Shown here: positions 11,337-19,291 of the stretch, in pieces
How positions within the stretch are numbered: the stretch's first letter is position 1
How the letters are laid out: each line of letters opens with the position of its first letter
Assembly (NCBI GenBank): GCA_027075555.1
Contig: JALTAZ010000097.1
Span: 1-40,355 of the forward strand
Reading direction: 5' to 3'
DNA: 40,355 bases
Source of the DNA: Micavibrio sp.
GTDB taxonomy: Bacteria > Pseudomonadota > Alphaproteobacteria > Micavibrionales > Micavibrionaceae
Position numbers and translations under genes: made by a program
Notes under the pieces: model-generated
What the model was told of the DNA's origin: nothing
What the model saw: only the letters and a program-made list of their open reading frames with translations
The model's database searches: none

Positions 11337-12146
11337 ATGGCAAATAAAAACAAAGAGCAAGAAGCCTATGTTCGTTTAGCACAAACATCGCAAGAAATAG
11401 AGCAAGCACAAAAACTTCGCTATAAAGTTTTCTATAGTGAGTACGGGGCACAACCAAGCCTAGAAATGCAACGGCAACAAAAAGATTTTGATGATTTTGA
11501 TAAAATAACTGATCATTTAATTGTTCTAGTTCGCAATAAAGAAGATAATTCTGAAAAAATTGTTGGTACCTATCGGCTTTTACGTCAAAATATTGCAGAA
11601 AAGCACGGTAGATTTTATTCTAGCAATGAATATAATTTAGAAAAACTAATTAAAAGTGACAACTTCCTGCTAGAACTTGGTCGCTCATGTGTTCTAGCCG
11701 ATTACAGAACAAAGCCAATTTTGAATATGCTTTGGCAAGGAATAGCAAACTATATTACGGAACATGATATAGATTTATTATTTGGTTGTGCAAGCTTCCA
11801 GGGTATTAATGTTGATAAAATTTCCAAACAACTATCATATCTTTACCATTATCACTCCACCCCAGAAGATATATCTCCTATAGCGATAAAAGAACATTAT
11901 GTAGATATGAATATACATTCTAAAGATAGCCTAAATGAAAGGCGTGTATTTGCCTCACTCCCCCCCCTGATTAAAGGATATCTAAGACTAGGAGCCACTA
12001 TTGGCAATGGCGCTGTGATAGATTATCAATTTAATACAATTGATGTATGCATAGTTGTTCAAACCAGCTTAATGACCGAGCGTTACCGTAAATATTATGA
12101 ACGCAAAATACAAAAACACATGCCCGGTAAATTAGATGAGAGTTGA
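11337..12146 (+). CDS. olsB: OlsB-like ornithine N-acyltransferase (GNAT-fold acyl-ACP acyltransferase)
   Basis: A 269-residue protein of the OlsB/hemolysin-like acyltransferase family. OlsB transfers a 3-hydroxyacyl chain from acyl carrier protein to the alpha-amino group of ornithine, the first step of ornithine-lipid synthesis. Family landmarks include LRYKVFYSEYGA (about 27-38), a DHLIVL strand, VGTYRLLR and the LELGRSCV block in the middle. Cytoplasmic and membrane-associated; no signal peptide. It is followed at once by a PlsC-type acyltransferase whose ATG overlaps this gene's TGA (TGATG), the classic olsB-olsA order. Ornithine as substrate is inferred from family and pairing, not shown. 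Confidence 0.85.
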   Translation: MANKNKEQEAYVRLAQTSQEIEQAQKLRYKVFYSEYGAQPSLEMQRQQKDFDDFDKITDHLIVLVRNKEDNSEKIVGTYRLLRQNIAEKHGRFYSSNEYNLEKLIKSDNFLLELGRSCVLADYRTKPILNMLWQGIANYITEHDIDLLFGCASFQGINVDKISKQLSYLYHYHSTPEDISPIAIKEHYVDMNIHSKDSLNERRVFASLPPLIKGYLRLGATIGNGAVIDYQFNTIDVCIVVQTSLMTERYRKYYERKIQKHMPGKLDES

Positions 12147-12958
12147 TGATAAGAATAATGAGACCTATAATCGCTATAATAAAATTTATATTATTTGCCC
12201 TGGTAACTGTTACAATTATTCCTATTCAACTATTGATACTTTCACTGCATAAAGGTAAATACTCATATGTAGTCCCTTGGATATGGCAAAAAGCCGTATG
12301 TATGATTTTTAGGATAAGATTGAAAATTATCGGCAAACCATACTCAAAAACTCAAGCTATATATGTATCAAACCACCTTTCATATCTGGATATTCCCGCT
12401 ATAGGCAGTATTATAAAAGGATCTTTCGTTGCAAAAAAAGATGTGGCTTCTTGGCCAGTTTTTGGATTTTTATCAAAATTACAGCAAACTGCCTTTATAA
12501 GTCGAGATCGTAAAGATGCTAAAAAAGAAAGGAACTCTCTTGACGCAATACTTGCAGATAAAAAAAATTTAATAATATTCCCTGAGGGTACTTCTACGGA
12601 TGGAAAAGAGGTCATGCCATTTAAATCAAGTTTATTTTCCATTGCCTATAAAAAAGAAGCAAAAAACATAATCATACAACCAATCACTTTGCGTATGGAA
12701 CTGGTTGATAATAAACACATATTAAGCCAAGAAGATCGAAATATTTACTCTTGGCATGTAAATATGGATATGCCACTAGAAAAACACTTATGGAATTTTG
12801 CATTAAGTAAAGGTGCTGTTATATCCCTTAATTTCCACAATATAATAAAAGCAAAAGATATTAAAGATAGAAAAACACTTGCCAAACTATGTCATAACAA
12901 CGTATCCAATGGTTTAAATATACCAACAAACAAGAAGGAAAATAATCATGAGCTTTAG
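12146..12958 (+). CDS. olsA: OlsA-like lyso-ornithine lipid O-acyltransferase (PlsC family)
   Basis: A 270-residue PlsC-type acyltransferase with an N-terminal membrane helix (about 10-34). The catalytic H(X4)D motif is intact as NHLSYLD (H77, D82), and the substrate motif is FPEGTS (145-150). With OlsB it should complete ornithine lipid by acylating the 3-hydroxyl of lyso-ornithine lipid; activity on lysophosphatidic acid is also possible, as known for some OlsA proteins. The open frame begins at TTG 12143, but the next codon is ATG at 12146, one base inside the olsB stop, and is the better start. It is a separate paralogue from the PlsC fusion at 5.8-7.4 kb, which lacks the Asp of this motif. 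Confidence 0.85.
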   Translation: MIRIMRPIIAIIKFILFALVTVTIIPIQLLILSLHKGKYSYVVPWIWQKAVCMIFRIRLKIIGKPYSKTQAIYVSNHLSYLDIPAIGSIIKGSFVAKKDVASWPVFGFLSKLQQTAFISRDRKDAKKERNSLDAILADKKNLIIFPEGTSTDGKEVMPFKSSLFSIAYKKEAKNIIIQPITLRMELVDNKHILSQEDRNIYSWHVNMDMPLEKHLWNFALSKGAVISLNFHNIIKAKDIKDRKTLAKLCHNNVSNGLNIPTNKKENNHEL

Positions 12959-13163
12959 CGCCGAAGAAATGTCAAAGCTTAAATCATATATTGAACGTGT
13001 ATTTAAGTGCTCTGGTATTACTGTAAAAAAAAGAGATAAAGCAGATGATTCAATAGAAGTCATGATGGATGGTGAATTTATTGGAGTTTTATATAAAATA
13101 ATTGATGAAGGGGAAACTTCATATGATTTTAATATGGCAATACTAGATATTGATCTTATATAG
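12948..13163 (+). CDS. DUF3126 family small protein
   Basis: A 71-residue cytoplasmic protein matching the alphaproteobacterial DUF3126 family. It shows the predicted helix-strand-strand pattern, a central DGEFIGVLYK segment (about 45-54) and the typical ending FNMAILDIDL. Function is unknown. A good AAGGAA ribosome-binding site lies seven bases before the ATG, and the gene overlaps olsA by 11 bp, so it is probably cotranscribed with the ornithine-lipid genes. It marks the end of this operon; a possible new promoter follows at 13173. Confidence 0.88.
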   Translation: MSFSAEEMSKLKSYIERVFKCSGITVKKRDKADDSIEVMMDGEFIGVLYKIIDEGETSYDFNMAILDIDLI

Positions 13164-13223: not shown

Positions 13224-13703
13224 ATGTGTGTTTTAAGGTCAAAAAAACTGTTATATACCTTGCTAATATATACTTATTTAATACTTGGCATGTGTCAATC
13301 ACAAGCACTCGAAGACTTAAAATATAACCATAAACTAAGCACATCACTTCAATTGCAAATTGATGAATTTTTAGAAAAACAATATAAAACCAACTCTTCT
13401 AACTATGAAGTAGCTAGCGTAGACTTAAATAATGATGGTGTGCTTGAATATATACTGAGAAGAAAATCATGTAAGCGCGATAATTATGAATGCACACATA
13501 TAATAATTGCTGAAAAAATAGACAAAATCTTGCTATTATCTAAAATAGGTGCCCGTAAGCTGATGGTAGATACATCAACATCTTATGGTATAAAAAATTT
13601 ATTAGTATTTAAAAATATTAATAATGACTATAATTTTGATATATATATGTGGTCGCCGAAGAAAAAAATGTATATAATATCTGAACAACATATGAAGGAC
13701 TGA
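13224..13703 (+). CDS. Exported protein of unknown function with a calcium-loop-like motif
   Basis: I do not recognise this 159-residue protein. A basic start and a hydrophobic stretch (about 8-22) ending in QSQA suggest a signal peptide cleaved near residue 28. No proper lipobox is present, although a Cys lies at 24. The mature part contains DLNNDGVLE (67-75), matching the DxNxDGxxE spacing of EF-hand-like or dockerin-like calcium loops, and a Cys pair (C83, C90) that could form a disulphide. The C-terminal half is rich in beta strands. It lies eight bases upstream of the next exported gene, so the two are probably cotranscribed. A periplasmic or surface location is inferred. Confidence 0.65.
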   Translation: MCVLRSKKLLYTLLIYTYLILGMCQSQALEDLKYNHKLSTSLQLQIDEFLEKQYKTNSSNYEVASVDLNNDGVLEYILRRKSCKRDNYECTHIIIAEKIDKILLLSKIGARKLMVDTSTSYGIKNLLVFKNINNDYNFDIYMWSPKKKMYIISEQHMKD

Positions 13704-13711
13704 GCATAATT

Positions 13712-15055
13712 GTGCTAGATAATTGTAAGAGTAACATTATATTTTTATTATTATGCATAACTAATGTTGTGTTTTTTTCAGCTACAGCAAATGCTGCGTG
13801 TTCTCCTGGCATACCTTGTACGGACTATGACATATATACAGATACTGAATCAGGTATATTACCATCGTTAAATGGCCCTAAGACCGGAACTCCTGCTCCT
13901 TATGACAATGTAACTGGATCCTCCTCTAGTGCTTGTGATGGTAACTTTATGAACCAAATATACAGTCATGCATTTATGAATGGTAATCGCGAAGTTATTA
14001 TGAGCGAACAGATAATTCATAAACCAGACAGTGTCCTTGAATATACATGTTTTGACCAGTGGGTTAATGTTGCTAGGGAAGAGGCAGGTAAAATATTTAC
14101 TGAAGATGATGGAACATGGGATAATAGAGAAGTTTGCCTATCCACTGGTGACAGCCAGACCTCTGACCCAACATCTTGTCCCAGTGGAGGAACAAACACG
14201 GTATCACCCTACAGTGTTACTATTAATGCGGCTAGAGCTTCAGGAACGGTTTCAGGCAATCTTCAATCTCTAATATTTGGTAATCTTGATACCTATATCA
14301 ATAATAACTTTAGTCATAAATTTATGGGCGAAGCCCTTTCCATAGATGTTGATTCAAGCTTTCCAGACGCAAGCGGAACTAGTTATAGCTGCTCTAACAT
14401 GAGTCTTGTTTGGGACATAGCAAAATGCATTGATTTTGAAGAAGACGATAGATTTAGAACCTTTGAAGATTTGGTTTCACAAGATCCGCGATCTATTCCT
14501 ACAGAGTGCTCTCCGGGGAACAGCTCTTCAGATTCTGTGACGGCAGGCACATCTTCTACAAAGTTAGATAACACTACCCCAGGTTCAAGCACATCAGCTA
14601 GCAGTATAATGGATCCTTGCCCTGCATCGGGGAGTGCGGTATCTGGGGTAAACACAGGTTTTTCCAATGACTTAATAAGAGTTGCTAATAATTGTGATGA
14701 TGGTTCTAATCTTAATGCATATTCGTCATTTGATGTTATGAAGCTATATGATGAAATGATATTGGGAATTCAAACACTTGTTGGAACATACCTGCCTGGA
14801 ACGGGCGGGATTTCTAGTGGGGTTGTAACTAATTGTAACGCCCCTATCCCTACGGGGGTTCCTGTTGTTACTTTTGAATATAATAATAGTTTGCTAGGCC
14901 CAGGACTTATTAATGTTGTTTCTAGAACTGCAAAAATTCATTATGAGCATATTTGCACCAATCCTGGTTGTTATTATAGACCTGTAAAAATCCCTTTTGT
15001 TATTAATGGCCCCGTTCCTGCAACTACACCAACAGGAGTGTGTACACCTTATTAA
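13712..15055 (+). CDS. Exported cysteine-rich protein, paralogue A (unknown function)
   Basis: I do not recognise this 447-residue protein. The start is GTG at 13712 (AAGGA about 12 bases upstream), giving a clear signal peptide with predicted cleavage after TANA (28). The mature chain has many cysteines, suggesting an oxidising compartment. Distinct blocks are shared with the next gene: KPDSVLEYTCFD (104-115), TYINNNF (194-200), YSC..M..VWD.AKCIDF (225-242), PIPTGVPVV (378-386) and a YEHICTNPGCYY tail motif (411-422). A Ser/Thr/Gly-rich stretch at about 268-300 looks like a flexible linker and, with the region to about 370, is extra relative to paralogue B. No membrane helix follows the signal peptide. 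The role is unknown; the cluster sits between ornithine-lipid and lipid A genes. Confidence 0.7.
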   Translation: MLDNCKSNIIFLLLCITNVVFFSATANAACSPGIPCTDYDIYTDTESGILPSLNGPKTGTPAPYDNVTGSSSSACDGNFMNQIYSHAFMNGNREVIMSEQIIHKPDSVLEYTCFDQWVNVAREEAGKIFTEDDGTWDNREVCLSTGDSQTSDPTSCPSGGTNTVSPYSVTINAARASGTVSGNLQSLIFGNLDTYINNNFSHKFMGEALSIDVDSSFPDASGTSYSCSNMSLVWDIAKCIDFEEDDRFRTFEDLVSQDPRSIPTECSPGNSSSDSVTAGTSSTKLDNTTPGSSTSASSIMDPCPASGSAVSGVNTGFSNDLIRVANNCDDGSNLNAYSSFDVMKLYDEMILGIQTLVGTYLPGTGGISSGVVTNCNAPIPTGVPVVTFEYNNSLLGPGLINVVSRTAKIHYEHICTNPGCYYRPVKIPFVINGPVPATTPTGVCTPY

Positions 15056-15131
15056 CAAAAGCTATTTGCTTTAATATTGAATATTTGTGTATTATATTAT
15101 TATGAATTTGAGAGTGACAAAGGATAAAACA

Positions 15132-16052
15132 ATGACTTTTAACATGATAAAATTAAAGTTACAAACAGTAGCTCTGTATACTTTATTCCTCATGTTCTAT
15201 ATTCCTAACGCAAATGCAGGGTCTGTCATAGCCGATACACCTTGCGACTCTCTTTACTATGAATCACTATCGGCTAGAGCATGGTTAGAAGCTCAAAGAG
15301 AAATAACACAAAATCAGAATATTATTTTAAAACCTGACAGCGTTTTTGAATATACATGTTTTGATCGCTTGGTAAGAGAGCTAGCAGTACAAGGCACAAA
15401 CATGCTAAGCGAAACTTCTGCTTTTGGTCGCCCGCTAGGTCCTTCGAGCTTGGACAATGCACTACAAAGACTCGTTGGCGTTTCTCTGATCACATATATA
15501 AACAATAATTTTGGTAGTAAAAGCTCTGCTAGTGGATATAACTTACTCTCTGGTCATCCGGCCGCTGCTGGTATAAATCACGTCCCTGAGTCAATTACCG
15601 GGGGCTCTGCGTATAGCTGCGATATTATGATGCGTGTTTGGGAAAAAGCCAAATGTATAAATTTTATATCTAATGGCAATACGGACGGTTTTTTTACATT
15701 TTCTGAATACGCTTCCTCAATAACAGATAAGCGAGTTTTACCAACCATGTGTACTTCTATACAAACTAACTGGAATGCTAATCTTGCATCTGCACTTACA
15801 TCGGGGCCATGGACTAATGACCCTGTACAAACCTACTTTAATTTGACCACTCCAGTAAATTGTAGTGGTACAAATTGTCCTTGTTCGGGGCAACCAATAC
15901 CAACAGGAGTTCAGGTTGTAAGGTCAGGATATAATACAAACACATATCAAGAGCATGTTTGCCTTCAACCTGGTTGTCGCTATCACCCCGGTGGTGATCC
16001 ACTTTATCCAGGAGGTGGAGTGGTTTCTGCTGCTGGTTGTTATGGTAGATAA
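15132..16052 (+). CDS. Exported cysteine-rich protein, paralogue B (unknown function)
   Basis: A 306-residue relative of the preceding gene product. The open frame extends upstream, but ATG at 15132 has AAAGGA eight bases before it and opens a clean signal peptide ending NANA (29). Blocks shared with paralogue A, in the same order, are LKPDSVFEYTCFD (66-78), TYINNNF (121-127), YSCDIMMRVWEKAKCINF (161-178), PIPTGVQVV (255-263) and EHVCLQPGCRY (274-284). Cysteines in the shared blocks are conserved, implying the same disulphide framework. The segment at about 44-62 (SARAWLEAQREITQNQNI) is a predicted amphipathic helix. A Gly/Pro-rich tail ends the protein. Function unknown. Confidence 0.7.
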   Translation: MTFNMIKLKLQTVALYTLFLMFYIPNANAGSVIADTPCDSLYYESLSARAWLEAQREITQNQNIILKPDSVFEYTCFDRLVRELAVQGTNMLSETSAFGRPLGPSSLDNALQRLVGVSLITYINNNFGSKSSASGYNLLSGHPAAAGINHVPESITGGSAYSCDIMMRVWEKAKCINFISNGNTDGFFTFSEYASSITDKRVLPTMCTSIQTNWNANLASALTSGPWTNDPVQTYFNLTTPVNCSGTNCPCSGQPIPTGVQVVRSGYNTNTYQEHVCLQPGCRYHPGGDPLYPGGGVVSAAGCYGR

Positions 16053-16120
16053 TGTATAAAATAGTCGTTTTTTATTGATTAGGTAAGACATAAATTTATA
16101 TCCGAAGATGAGATTTAGTG

Positions 16121-17413
16121 ATGTATGCACTATACAGGCAGCTTACATATATGGGGGGGTGCCTGTTTGCTCTTTTGCTTATCATAAGAAAAAATAAAGG
16201 TCGGGAGTCAACTACTCGTTATATAGAAAAAAAGGCTGTAATATCACAAAAACGTCCTAAAGGAAAACTGTTATGGATACATGGAGCAAGTGTAGGTGAA
16301 GCGCAATCTGCACTGATCCTTATTAAGAAAATTATAAAAGACTACCCAAACACAAATATTTTGATAACAACCGGAACATTAACCTCAGCTCAATTGATGA
16401 GCAAGGCTTTACCAAAAAATGCCCTGCACCAATTTTATCCATTAGATCACCCCAAATGGGTAAAAAACTTCTTAAATCACTGGAAGCCTAATGCAATTTT
16501 ATGGATGGAATCTGAATTATGGCCAAATATGCTCTATGAGATAAGAAAAAGTAATATTCCAGCCATTTTAGTTAATGCCAGATTATCTGATAAATCATTC
16601 AAAATATGGAAGATATTTCCTAAATTTTCCAAAAATATATTATCAAGCTTTAATAAAATATTATGCCAAACCAGTAAAGACAAAAATAAATTTGACCAAA
16701 TCGGGGCATTCAAAACCATTGTTACAGATAATTTAAAATATAGTTCTGCTCCGCTTGTTTTTAATAAAAATGATCTAGGGAAAATTATAAAATCCATAGG
16801 AAACAGGGAAATATGGCTGTATGCCAGCACTCATGAAGGAGAAGAAGAAATTGCACATATCATACATAAAAAACTAAAAAAAGATTTTCCCAAGATACTT
16901 ACTATTATAGTTCCAAGGCACCCAGAAAGACGTGATGATATAAAGAATAATTGCTCCTTATATAATTTAAAAACTACTTATAGGGGAGTAAATAAAATTT
17001 TACCTAAAAATGATGATGATATATATGTTGTTGATACACTTGGTGAGCTAGGGCTATTTTATAAAATTTCCCCTATCGCCGTAATTGGTCGCTCATTAAG
17101 CAATGATGGGGGTGGTGGTCATAACCCTATTGAAGCTGCTCAATTAAATTGTGCCGTTATACATGGCTGTAATATTCAAAATTTGCAACAAATATATGAT
17201 AATATGGATGAAGAAGGTGCTGCAATAATGGTAGAAAATAGCAAACAACTATATAAAACTATTAAAAATTTGATAAAAGATAAATCTGAGCTTAAAAAAC
17301 TTGAGAGTAAGGCATTAGAGTTTGCCAATAAAAAAACCCATGTTATTGATAATGTTATGAAAGAGCTTGAACCAGTATTATCAGCATTAAGCTGTGAAGA
17401 TAAAAAGACATAA
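16121..17413 (+). CDS. waaA: 3-deoxy-D-manno-octulosonic acid (Kdo) transferase
   Basis: A 430-residue GT30 glycosyltransferase that adds Kdo from CMP-Kdo to the lipid A precursor at the inner membrane. An N-terminal membrane anchor (about 7-23) precedes the family motif LLWIHGASVGEAQS (50-63), with catalytic Glu60. The C-terminal CMP-Kdo-binding region includes VIGRSLSNDGGGGHNPIEAA, in the middle of the second Rossmann-like domain. GTG at 16118 and ATG at 16121 are adjacent; ATG is chosen with GATGAG upstream. Length is normal. lpxK follows after two bases, so the two are coupled. Whether one or two Kdo residues are added cannot be told. Confidence 0.94.
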   Translation: MYALYRQLTYMGGCLFALLLIIRKNKGRESTTRYIEKKAVISQKRPKGKLLWIHGASVGEAQSALILIKKIIKDYPNTNILITTGTLTSAQLMSKALPKNALHQFYPLDHPKWVKNFLNHWKPNAILWMESELWPNMLYEIRKSNIPAILVNARLSDKSFKIWKIFPKFSKNILSSFNKILCQTSKDKNKFDQIGAFKTIVTDNLKYSSAPLVFNKNDLGKIIKSIGNREIWLYASTHEGEEEIAHIIHKKLKKDFPKILTIIVPRHPERRDDIKNNCSLYNLKTTYRGVNKILPKNDDDIYVVDTLGELGLFYKISPIAVIGRSLSNDGGGGHNPIEAAQLNCAVIHGCNIQNLQQIYDNMDEEGAAIMVENSKQLYKTIKNLIKDKSELKKLESKALEFANKKTHVIDNVMKELEPVLSALSCEDKKT

Positions 17414-17415
17414 TC

Positions 17416-18408
17416 ATGATCTTAAGAACCCCTGATTTTTGGTATAAAGAAACAAATATTTCTATAACATTAGGTGAGATATTATTATATCCGCTTAGTG
17501 TGCTTTATCAAATCGGGCATCATATCAACCAAAACTTTACTAAAACAAAGTCTGTTAAAATACCCGTCATATGTATTGGCAATATAACAGCAGGAGGAAG
17601 CGGAAAAACACCTATCTCAATTGCGATAAATAAGCTAGTTCAAGAAAATAATATCTCTAATGCACCTTATTTTTTGACTAGGGGATATGGTGGAAATAAT
17701 CACAATACAAGGGTCATAAAGGTTCATGATGATGCAAAAGAAACAGGAGATGAACCGTTATTACTTGCAAGCCATTCAAATACAATAATTTCCAAGAACC
17801 GGTATAACGGTGCATTAATGGCTCATAAACTAGGTGCAGACCTGATAATTATGGATGATGGATTACAAAACCAAACACTTAAGAAAGATATCTCTTTTCT
17901 AGTTATTGATGGGAATATGGGATTTGGTAATGAAAGAACTCTACCCTCTGGTCCTTTAAGAGAGCCATTAAAACATGCATTAAATAAAGTTGATGCTGTT
18001 ATAATTATTGGTAAAGATATTAGGAAAATTAAAAATAAAATACCAGATAATATGACTGTATTTTATTCTCAAATAAAACCAGCATCAAAAAATATGCCCG
18101 ATAAATCAAAACAATATATAGCCTTTTGTGGTTTAGGTTATCCTGATAAATTCTTCAAAACTCTAAAAGATAATGGATATAAAATTATAAAATCATTTTC
18201 TTTTTCTGATCACCATAATTTTAGTTATAAAGATTTGAAGAAAATCAAAGACTCTGCTCTAAATAGTAATTCTAGTATTATAACCACTGAAAAGGATTAT
18301 ATTAGACTACCTCAGACATTTAAAAATGATGTTGTAACTCTACCTATTGAGATAAAATTTGATAATGAAGATAAACTAGTATCATTTATAAAAAGCACGC
18401 TCAAATAA
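17416..18408 (+). CDS. lpxK: Tetraacyldisaccharide 4'-kinase LpxK
   Basis: A 330-residue membrane-associated kinase that phosphorylates the 4' position of the lipid A disaccharide. The P-loop GNITAGGSGKTP (55-66, K64) is the family's distinctive Walker A. An N-terminal hydrophobic helix (about 20-36) provides the membrane contact. The MDDGLQN motif in the middle carries the acidic residues for metal and catalysis, and GPLREPL and SFSDHHNFS segments are also typical. Length matches the family. The gene lies between waaA (2-bp gap) and an LpxL-type acyltransferase (16-bp gap), forming a compact lipid A operon. Confidence 0.95.
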   Translation: MILRTPDFWYKETNISITLGEILLYPLSVLYQIGHHINQNFTKTKSVKIPVICIGNITAGGSGKTPISIAINKLVQENNISNAPYFLTRGYGGNNHNTRVIKVHDDAKETGDEPLLLASHSNTIISKNRYNGALMAHKLGADLIIMDDGLQNQTLKKDISFLVIDGNMGFGNERTLPSGPLREPLKHALNKVDAVIIIGKDIRKIKNKIPDNMTVFYSQIKPASKNMPDKSKQYIAFCGLGYPDKFFKTLKDNGYKIIKSFSFSDHHNFSYKDLKKIKDSALNSNSSIITTEKDYIRLPQTFKNDVVTLPIEIKFDNEDKLVSFIKSTLK

Positions 18409-18424: not shown

Positions 18425-19291
18425 ATGAAAAGAATTCGTTATTTTTTTGAAGCGCTATTCCTTCACCTGATATTTATATTATTCGCTATGTTTCCTCCTG
18501 AAAAAGCCTCTAACATTGGTGGTTGGATTGGAAGAGCTATAGGTCCTAGACTTGCTACTAGCCGTAAGGCTCGTAAAAATATTATAAAAGCTTTGCCCCA
18601 ATTAGGAACAAAAGAACAAGATGGTATAATTGCTGGTATGTGGGAAAATTTAGGACGAGTAATTGCCGAATATCCACACCTTAAAAAAATCAGCAAAGAA
18701 CACACAATAATTGAAAATAAAGGGCGTTTAGAGGCTTTGCTCAATAAAAAACAGCCTATAGTTTTCTTTGGTGCTCATATCGCAAATTGGGAGGTAAATT
18801 CTACGGCTTTACTTACGCAATATAATAAACCCATTGCTCTAACCTATCGTGCACCAAACAACCCATGGACAGCCAACCTACTTGATAAGGCCAGAACTCT
18901 TAATGGTCGATTGCCGGCATTTCCAAAATCAAGAGAAAGTGGAAAAGATATACTTAAAACCTTAAAAAACGGAGATGCTCTAGGTATATTGATTGATCAA
19001 AAATATAATGAAGGCATTGAGGTGGAGTTTTTTTCTCTACCAGCTATGACAAATCCAATATTTGTCCATCTATGTCAAAAATTCAAATGCCCTCTTGTTC
19101 CAGTAAAAAATGAGCGTATAAGTGGCTGTAAATTTAAAATAACCCCCTACCCACCTTTAATATTATTTGATGAAGATAATAAACCACGCCCAGTTGAAGA
19201 TGTTATCAAAGATGCGCATAGCTTGCTTGAAGCATGGATTAAAGAAAGGCCAGAACAATGGATATGGATACATAGACGATGGAAAAACTAA
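18425..19291 (+). CDS. LpxL/HtrB-family lipid A acyltransferase
   Basis: A 288-residue lysophospholipid acyltransferase-like enzyme expected to add a secondary acyl chain to Kdo-lipid A from acyl-ACP. An N-terminal membrane helix lies at about 8-24. The catalytic HX4E motif is HIANWE (H118, E123). The NPWTANLLDKAR region and the DQKYNEG segment match the family, and the ERPEQWIWIHRRW ending is diagnostic. AAAGAGA precedes the ATG. It is the last gene of the waaA-lpxK block and is followed by convergent mutT. Acyl-chain and position specificity (LpxL, LpxM or the long-chain type) cannot be decided, so no symbol is given. Confidence 0.9.
   Translation: MKRIRYFFEALFLHLIFILFAMFPPEKASNIGGWIGRAIGPRLATSRKARKNIIKALPQLGTKEQDGIIAGMWENLGRVIAEYPHLKKISKEHTIIENKGRLEALLNKKQPIVFFGAHIANWEVNSTALLTQYNKPIALTYRAPNNPWTANLLDKARTLNGRLPAFPKSRESGKDILKTLKNGDALGILIDQKYNEGIEVEFFSLPAMTNPIFVHLCQKFKCPLVPVKNERISGCKFKITPYPPLILFDEDNKPRPVEDVIKDAHSLLEAWIKERPEQWIWIHRRWKN

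Follow-up and report, generated by a model that had tools for sequence, protein, structure and literature searches.

What is the role of three consecutive genes that encode exported-looking proteins and lie between the ornithine-lipid and lipid A genes of an alphaproteobacterium? The question is raised by a stretch of DNA from Micavibrio sp. (NCBI GenBank assembly GCA_027075555.1, contig JALTAZ010000097.1, positions 1 to 40,355 of the forward strand), the whole of which, at its full length of 40,355 nucleotides, is called the window below. An earlier note on this DNA had described a plus-strand trio, and its open reading frames (ORFs) were confirmed: gene A (13224-13703, 159 amino acids (aa)), gene B (13712-15055, 447 aa) and gene C (15132-16052, 306 aa). 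Judged from their sequences, B and C are true paralogues, old tandem duplicates as had been proposed, and the cysteine-rich domain common to both, given the name family F here, is an undescribed protein family. In some relatives the protein is joined to an enzyme that cuts the cell wall, a fusion that suggests a part in maintaining the envelope. The best explanation, offered tentatively and with somewhat less than even confidence, is that A, B and C form a periplasmic module controlling peptidoglycan cleavage, of which the window's lineage would have kept the non-catalytic parts.

B and C as Members of a Cysteine-Rich Family

The proteins B and C align in BLASTP with an E-value of 2e-21 (31% over 209 columns in the best piece), and Smith-Waterman comparison of the mature proteins gave a score of 232, against a mean of 40.5 (standard deviation 6.4, maximum 67) for 500 shuffles. 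A score so far above those of the shuffled sequences means that the two proteins are homologous, and chance similarity is ruled out. All five sequence blocks that the earlier note had picked out are present in both proteins and in the same order. On the plus strand, the block KPDSVLEYTCFD of B (14021-14056) has its counterpart in KPDSVFEYTCFD of C (15330-15365), YSCSNMSLVWDIAKCIDF of B (14384-14437) in YSCDIMMRVWEKAKCINF of C (15612-15665), and EHICTNPGCYY of B (14945-14977) in EHVCLQPGCRY of C (15951-15983); the conservation of cysteines in the family was likewise supported. That no known family can be named for these proteins was borne out as well, as B and C matched no family of PHROGs or NCBIfam at E-values up to 1 and none of Pfam except for a chance match of B to LigD_N (E 0.11). 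Sequence searches of the PDB returned nothing for A3 and chance-level rows only for A7 and A5, and the F domain found nothing meaningful in the sequence libraries searched. Literature searches on secretion, predation or the wall in Micavibrio and the Micavibrionales turned up no description of F.

In a midpoint-rooted FastTree tree of 134 F domains, the window's B falls among 25 B proteins (support 0.989), a group that contains a single protein matching the M23 profile (L167_8010, see below), and the remaining B proteins form a second group (support 0.986). The C proteins, interspersed with scattered copies, do not make up one clade.

The N-termini of A, B and C all carry a hydrophobic, signal-peptide-like stretch (judged by eye), and residues 5-22 of A form a helix in its AlphaFold model. 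For C, the ATG at 15132, close behind AAAGGA, is the more probable start by eye; the GTG at 15087 taken in the earlier note would give a protein of 321 rather than 306 aa. The promoter of its own that had been proposed for the trio was not recovered, a simple scan from 12900 to the start of A having given no plus-strand promoter-like site. The claim that the genes are under constraint fared better. For the closely related pair L009-L011, the ratio of non-synonymous to synonymous substitution rates (dN/dS) is 0.22 for A, 0.055 for B and 0.10 for C, and 0.087-0.216 for the four neighbours OlsA, WaaA, LpxK and LpxL; the ratios of B and C are rough, their dS being high (2.8 and 1.5, respectively), and several dS values exceed 1. 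The pair L006-L008 gave 0.18 for A and 0.088 for C, with no estimate obtainable for B or WaaA. Rough as these ratios are, every one obtained stays under 0.3, the range that purifying selection would be expected to give.

Distribution of F and A

Using a profile of C, F was found in 88 of the 114 genomes of the window's order, and in 78 of the 90 better ones. With a wider profile, the class yielded 4 matching genomes among 385, none from outside the window's own family, and the phylum one among 398, namely the window's own; A was matched in 3 of 289 genomes of the class, again all in the window's own family. The order is sparsely represented in these samples of the class and phylum, and remote homologues may have escaped detection. 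A search of named genomes returned nine relatives of C, all of them from metagenome-assembled genomes labelled Alphaproteobacteria bacterium or Micavibrio sp. As far as has been seen, F looks restricted to a single alphaproteobacterial order, to which the obligate epibiotic predator Micavibrio belongs (PMC3189940).

M23 Domains at the B Position and the Partner Gene A

Around the homologues, recurring partners such as the earlier note expected of such a family were found: gene A and the lipid A genes, to which some relatives add an M23 endopeptidase by fusion. In all, 53 stretches of the lipid A locus were read; having been chosen for holding F, they give no measure of its absence. They comprise 37 loci of the f1/f7 type with B, seven with C only, three cut by contig ends, and six of family f3. 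A locus was scored as holding B if it had at least two F genes or an M23-F gene, and the nine named relatives L006-L014, for which no family label exists, were assigned to f1/f7 on the basis of similarity. Over their last 150 residues, all F proteins in the locus table differ from one another; the named and order-genome sets overlap in genomes (L007 and L009 versus G034 and G102).

With a local profile, an M23/LytM endopeptidase domain was found N-terminal to F, at the position of B, in 11 proteins from 10 of the 37 B-containing loci. Pfam M23 scores above its cut-off in L087 (99.4 bits, E = 1.4e-28), L059 (40.8 bits) and L049 (37.1 bits), and below it in L014 (14.8 bits versus a cut-off of 28.7). 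The zinc-site motif HxxxD is present in all 11 proteins and HxH in eight, the latter being missing from the M23 domain of L168, L167_8010 and L088. Among M23 proteins of solved structure, ShyA (E = 6e-19), DipM (E = 1e-13) and TagE can be aligned with the L087 protein. L087 and its relatives thereby resemble the M23/LytM factors (ShyA, TagE, DipM, EnvC) in the enzyme domain at the B position, and differ from them in F, for which the libraries searched gave no meaningful match; the window's B is further removed, as it shows no M23 domain by Pfam and is not among the matches of the local profile. Since M23-F proteins occur in both f1 and f7, at the same place and next to A, the fusion is probably ancestral in these two families and would have been lost more than once.

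The occurrence of gene A tracks that of B, A being present in 34 of the 37 B-containing loci and in none of the seven with C only (Fisher test, 3e-6, relatedness ignored); this count leaves out the three loci at contig ends (L119, L134, L172) and the six of family f3, which hold F and in which no A was found. Because A persists where the M23 domain is gone, this domain is a less likely partner for A than F or the entire B protein. Two loci have repeated units: in L167 a single A is flanked by two M23-F genes, and L168 has an A gene directly before an F gene twice over, with M23 in one of the two F genes.

The protein A itself contains the acidic loop DLNNDGVLE (residues 67-75; 13422-13448, plus strand), and the corresponding pattern, D-[LI]-[NDS]-x-D-x3-E, is found in 35 of 36 A homologues, from which calcium binding is predicted. 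Residues L68, D71 and E75 are invariant across the 36 homologues, and C83 and C90 nearly so. An AlphaFold model of A (mean predicted local distance difference test score (pLDDT) 86) consists of a helix followed by eight strands. Foldseek found no match to this model under an E-value of 0.001, with DDB1 propellers on top, and VIA-align returned mostly propeller chains (DDB1, LGI1, integrin) at Z-scores of 5.5-6.0, a commonly reached level. Pfam FG-GAP repeats score 14 bits in A, short of their cut-off of 26.9. At E-values up to 0.1, XAC2610_fam alone among the families of NCBIfam gathers matches from more than two of the 36 A proteins; six of them match it, below threshold (best E 3.1e-5). XAC2610, like Tsi1 and PliI, is described as a propeller-type protein that inhibits a peptidoglycan hydrolase, and it binds calcium (PMC10933484). 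With these proteins A shares its export (by eye), the calcium-type loop, the location beside a present or former hydrolase gene and, in the six homologues, the faint family match, and its model may be propeller-like in part; it differs from them in being shorter, in scoring below the cut-off and in being kept where the hydrolase domain has been lost. Chains of XAC2610, PliI and Tsi1 were not among the best 50 matches of Foldseek or VIA-align, which excludes nothing.

Taken with the way in which A accompanies B, the repeated units of L167 and L168 and the exported lysozyme/CHAP-type neighbours of two F genes (see below), the XAC2610-like traits would also suit a toxin-immunity pair, in which B and A are, or descend from, an antibacterial exported M23 hydrolase and its immunity protein. 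Such an origin is nevertheless quite improbable in our view, as the genes have a core-gene location, a common gene order and low dN/dS, and as A survives the loss of M23 and stays below the XAC2610 cut-off. More generally, the surface, adhesion or competition role envisaged in the earlier note found no direct support.

The Lipid A Locus

The setting of the trio is as the earlier note had it, established by Pfam and, for LpxK and LpxL, by eye. Upstream on the plus strand lie genes for an OlsB-like GNAT acyltransferase (11337-12146; PF13444, Acetyltransf_5, E = 4e-29), an OlsA/PlsC-type acyltransferase (12143-12958; PF01553, E = 9e-23) and a DUF3126 protein (12948-13163; PF11324, E = 5e-25), and downstream, on the same strand, waaA, encoding the 3-deoxy-D-manno-octulosonic acid (Kdo) transferase (16118-17413; PF04413, Glycos_transf_N, E = 2e-57), lpxK (17416-18408) and a gene for an LpxL-type acyltransferase (18425-19291). 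The order olsB-olsA-DUF3126-A-B-C-waaA is kept in all nine named relatives (L006-L014), some of which have an extra F gene, and lpxK-lpxL are also present in eight of them, L013 ending inside waaA.

This linkage is the basis of another reading, in which C, or B together with C, would be periplasmic helpers for the Kdo-lipid A or the ornithine lipid made by the products of the neighbouring genes, and thus serve the building of lipopolysaccharide and the outer membrane. F adjoins waaA, or is at most two ORFs away from it, in 41 of 44 complete f1/f7 loci (the exceptions being L049, L062 and L145); it still lies by waaA in six of the seven C-only loci, including that of G047 (L050), and the linkage extends to family f3, in which F is near waaA in four of six loci (L084, L085, L090, L091). 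Against this, library searches detected no lipopolysaccharide-type domain in A, B or C, neither the M23 fusions nor the second home of F beside htpG, described below, fits such a role, and in L049 the A-B-C block has been displaced from waaA and inverted, yet has stayed together. On balance, we regard a helper role in lipopolysaccharide building as a serious candidate, though a rather doubtful one.

A small ORF on the opposite strand separates C from waaA in some relatives (L010 10897-11244, L012 10945-11337, L014 11016-11501 and L058 8973-9290). In the window, no ORF of at least 60 aa is listed in this gap, except for one that overlaps the end of C.

Copies of F Elsewhere

Besides B and C, one more F gene, D, is present in the window's genome, on contig 140 (L015 6021-7298). 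The family has a second conserved home, in which F stands between a Zincin_1 gene and htpG, often near a gene for 5-aminolevulinate synthase (named by eye); HSP90 and Zincin_1 were assigned by Pfam, and htpG is present in 16 of 39 F stretches (filler excluded). D has the Zincin_1 gene (L015 5455-5886) and the synthase gene as neighbours, and its contig ends before htpG could show.

Ten of the 39 stretches show neither lipid A genes nor htpG, and three of these ten adjoin wall genes, a rough count, as the other stretches were compared with 28 named proteins only or are partly annotated. In L057, F lies behind mreB-mreC-mreD-PBP2-rodA; in L061 it is followed by an ion channel gene and MltB-RlpA-DacA; in L137 it is near two DacA-like genes.

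Two neighbours of F encode candidate wall-degrading enzymes. One, encoded behind F in L057 (8889-10133), is a protein with phage-lysozyme and CHAP domains whose N-terminus looks signal-like by eye, and the other is an exported-looking CHAP-type relative encoded next to F in L148 (5980-7167), a locus 2 copy. Relatives of the L057 type that cover the CHAP part at E < 1e-10 number nine in the 114 genomes, and two of these nine lie within 1.5 kb of F (by eye); the rough chance of this, 0.003, assumes 1% per gene, is post hoc and carries little weight.

A Proposed Periplasmic Module for Peptidoglycan Cleavage

How could these observations be brought together? In the explanation that we prefer, A, B and C would constitute a vertically inherited periplasmic module of the order's cell envelope, in which F, stabilised by disulphides, would assist peptidoglycan cleavage as a partner or by targeting. 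A would be a small, calcium-binding, propeller-type protein that binds B through F, a choice of contact suggested by the persistence of A where M23 has been lost, and that holds B in check or in place, while C may be an adaptor that consists of F alone. In the window's lineage, B would have lost its enzyme and become a non-catalytic regulator of other hydrolases, one that would coordinate wall opening with outer-membrane growth.

Several points weigh against this proposal. The M23 domain is without a match in 27 of the 37 B-containing loci, including the window's, so that A and B persist without the enzyme, and in family f3 neither A nor M23 was detected in any of the six F-holding loci. The Zincin_1-F-htpG locus comes without wall genes, and the wall genes beside three of the ten scattered copies are not clearly above chance, the neighbours not all being annotated. 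F itself is without a fold assignment, the AlphaFold model of C made with 21 sequences being unusable (pLDDT 54, too low for a fold search). The fold matches of A are weak as well (maximum VIA-align Z of 6.0, in a list headed by an NTF2-like protein); the window's A is not among the six XAC2610_fam matches at E 0.1 (12.7 versus 35 bits), and for this protein models of an ACT domain (E 0.009) and an azoreductase (E 0.016), both far below their cut-offs, outscore XAC2610_fam. Finally, the link of C to waaA would also suit a lipopolysaccharide role.

What gives the module its interest is that an order with an epibiotic predator carries what looks like a private exported family, fixed at the lipid A and htpG loci, and that the M23 fusions and the A-B pairing lead to a testable idea, namely that this lineage has its own way of controlling peptidoglycan cleavage and links it with outer-membrane synthesis. 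In its boldest form, which we consider unlikely as a whole, F would be a periplasmic partner of peptidoglycan hydrolases, of a novel class that arose in an order to which epibiotic predators belong. Together with A it would represent a hydrolase-plus-propeller-inhibitor pair turned into a housekeeping module within the lipid A block, where wall cleavage and outer-membrane growth, or, for predators, the opening of the prey wall, could be jointly controlled.

Type IVB Secretion Genes and the K Family

The earlier note had also recorded an impression that similar motifs occur near type IVB (Dot/Icm) loci, and this was for the most part not borne out. The window's genome does have type IVB genes, with matches to DotH, DotD, T4SS_TraI, a T2SSE-type ATPase, DotM and DotI, among which we take the T4SS_TraI match to be DotC and the ATPase match to be DotB. 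DotH was found in 12 of 13 genomes tested. Genome G051 has an F gene (L047 8025-8939) surrounded by an array of K-protein genes (see below), about 9 kb from dotD-dotC-dotB (L111). These two facts, the prevalence of DotH and the G051 gene, would fit a reading in which the F proteins assist the type IVB secretion system of the order or are its substrates. A general linkage was not seen. In the window's genome, DotH is on contig 18, DotD to DotM are on contig 100 and F is on contigs 97 and 140; F was found in none of the nine stretches around type IVB genes (L110-L118), and for the three proteins of the window the sequence libraries gave no match to a Dot/Icm family. G051 is the only case of F amid type IVB-linked genes among the matches listed, compared by eye. 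Dot/Icm membership as a general link was therefore rejected, and a type IVB role for F strikes us as very unlikely, the more so as the profiles of F and K are unrelated: homology between them, raised by a helix-loop-Cys-helix pattern that looks similar by eye, was rejected at an hhalign probability of 0.2 percent.

Type IVB genes are common in the order, examples being the stretches L098 and L113 (both from G047) and L110 and L112 (both from G000). For M. aeruginosavorus ARL-13, a published account reports no evidence of type III or type IV secretion (PMC3189940).

The K proteins form a multi-copy family; they look exported, range from about 310 to 990 aa in length and bear a motif that resembles AHKDYHPSE..C, and the three members scanned (from L047) had no match in Pfam. 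Their genes flank dotI-dotH or flgK-flgL and were seen in L118 (11410-18833, five in a row), L112 (11748-12683), L113 (13322-14521), L116 (11986-13269) and, on either side of the F gene of G051, in L047 (4882-8008 and 8945-11902). Matches to the K family occur in 99 of the 114 genomes of the order.

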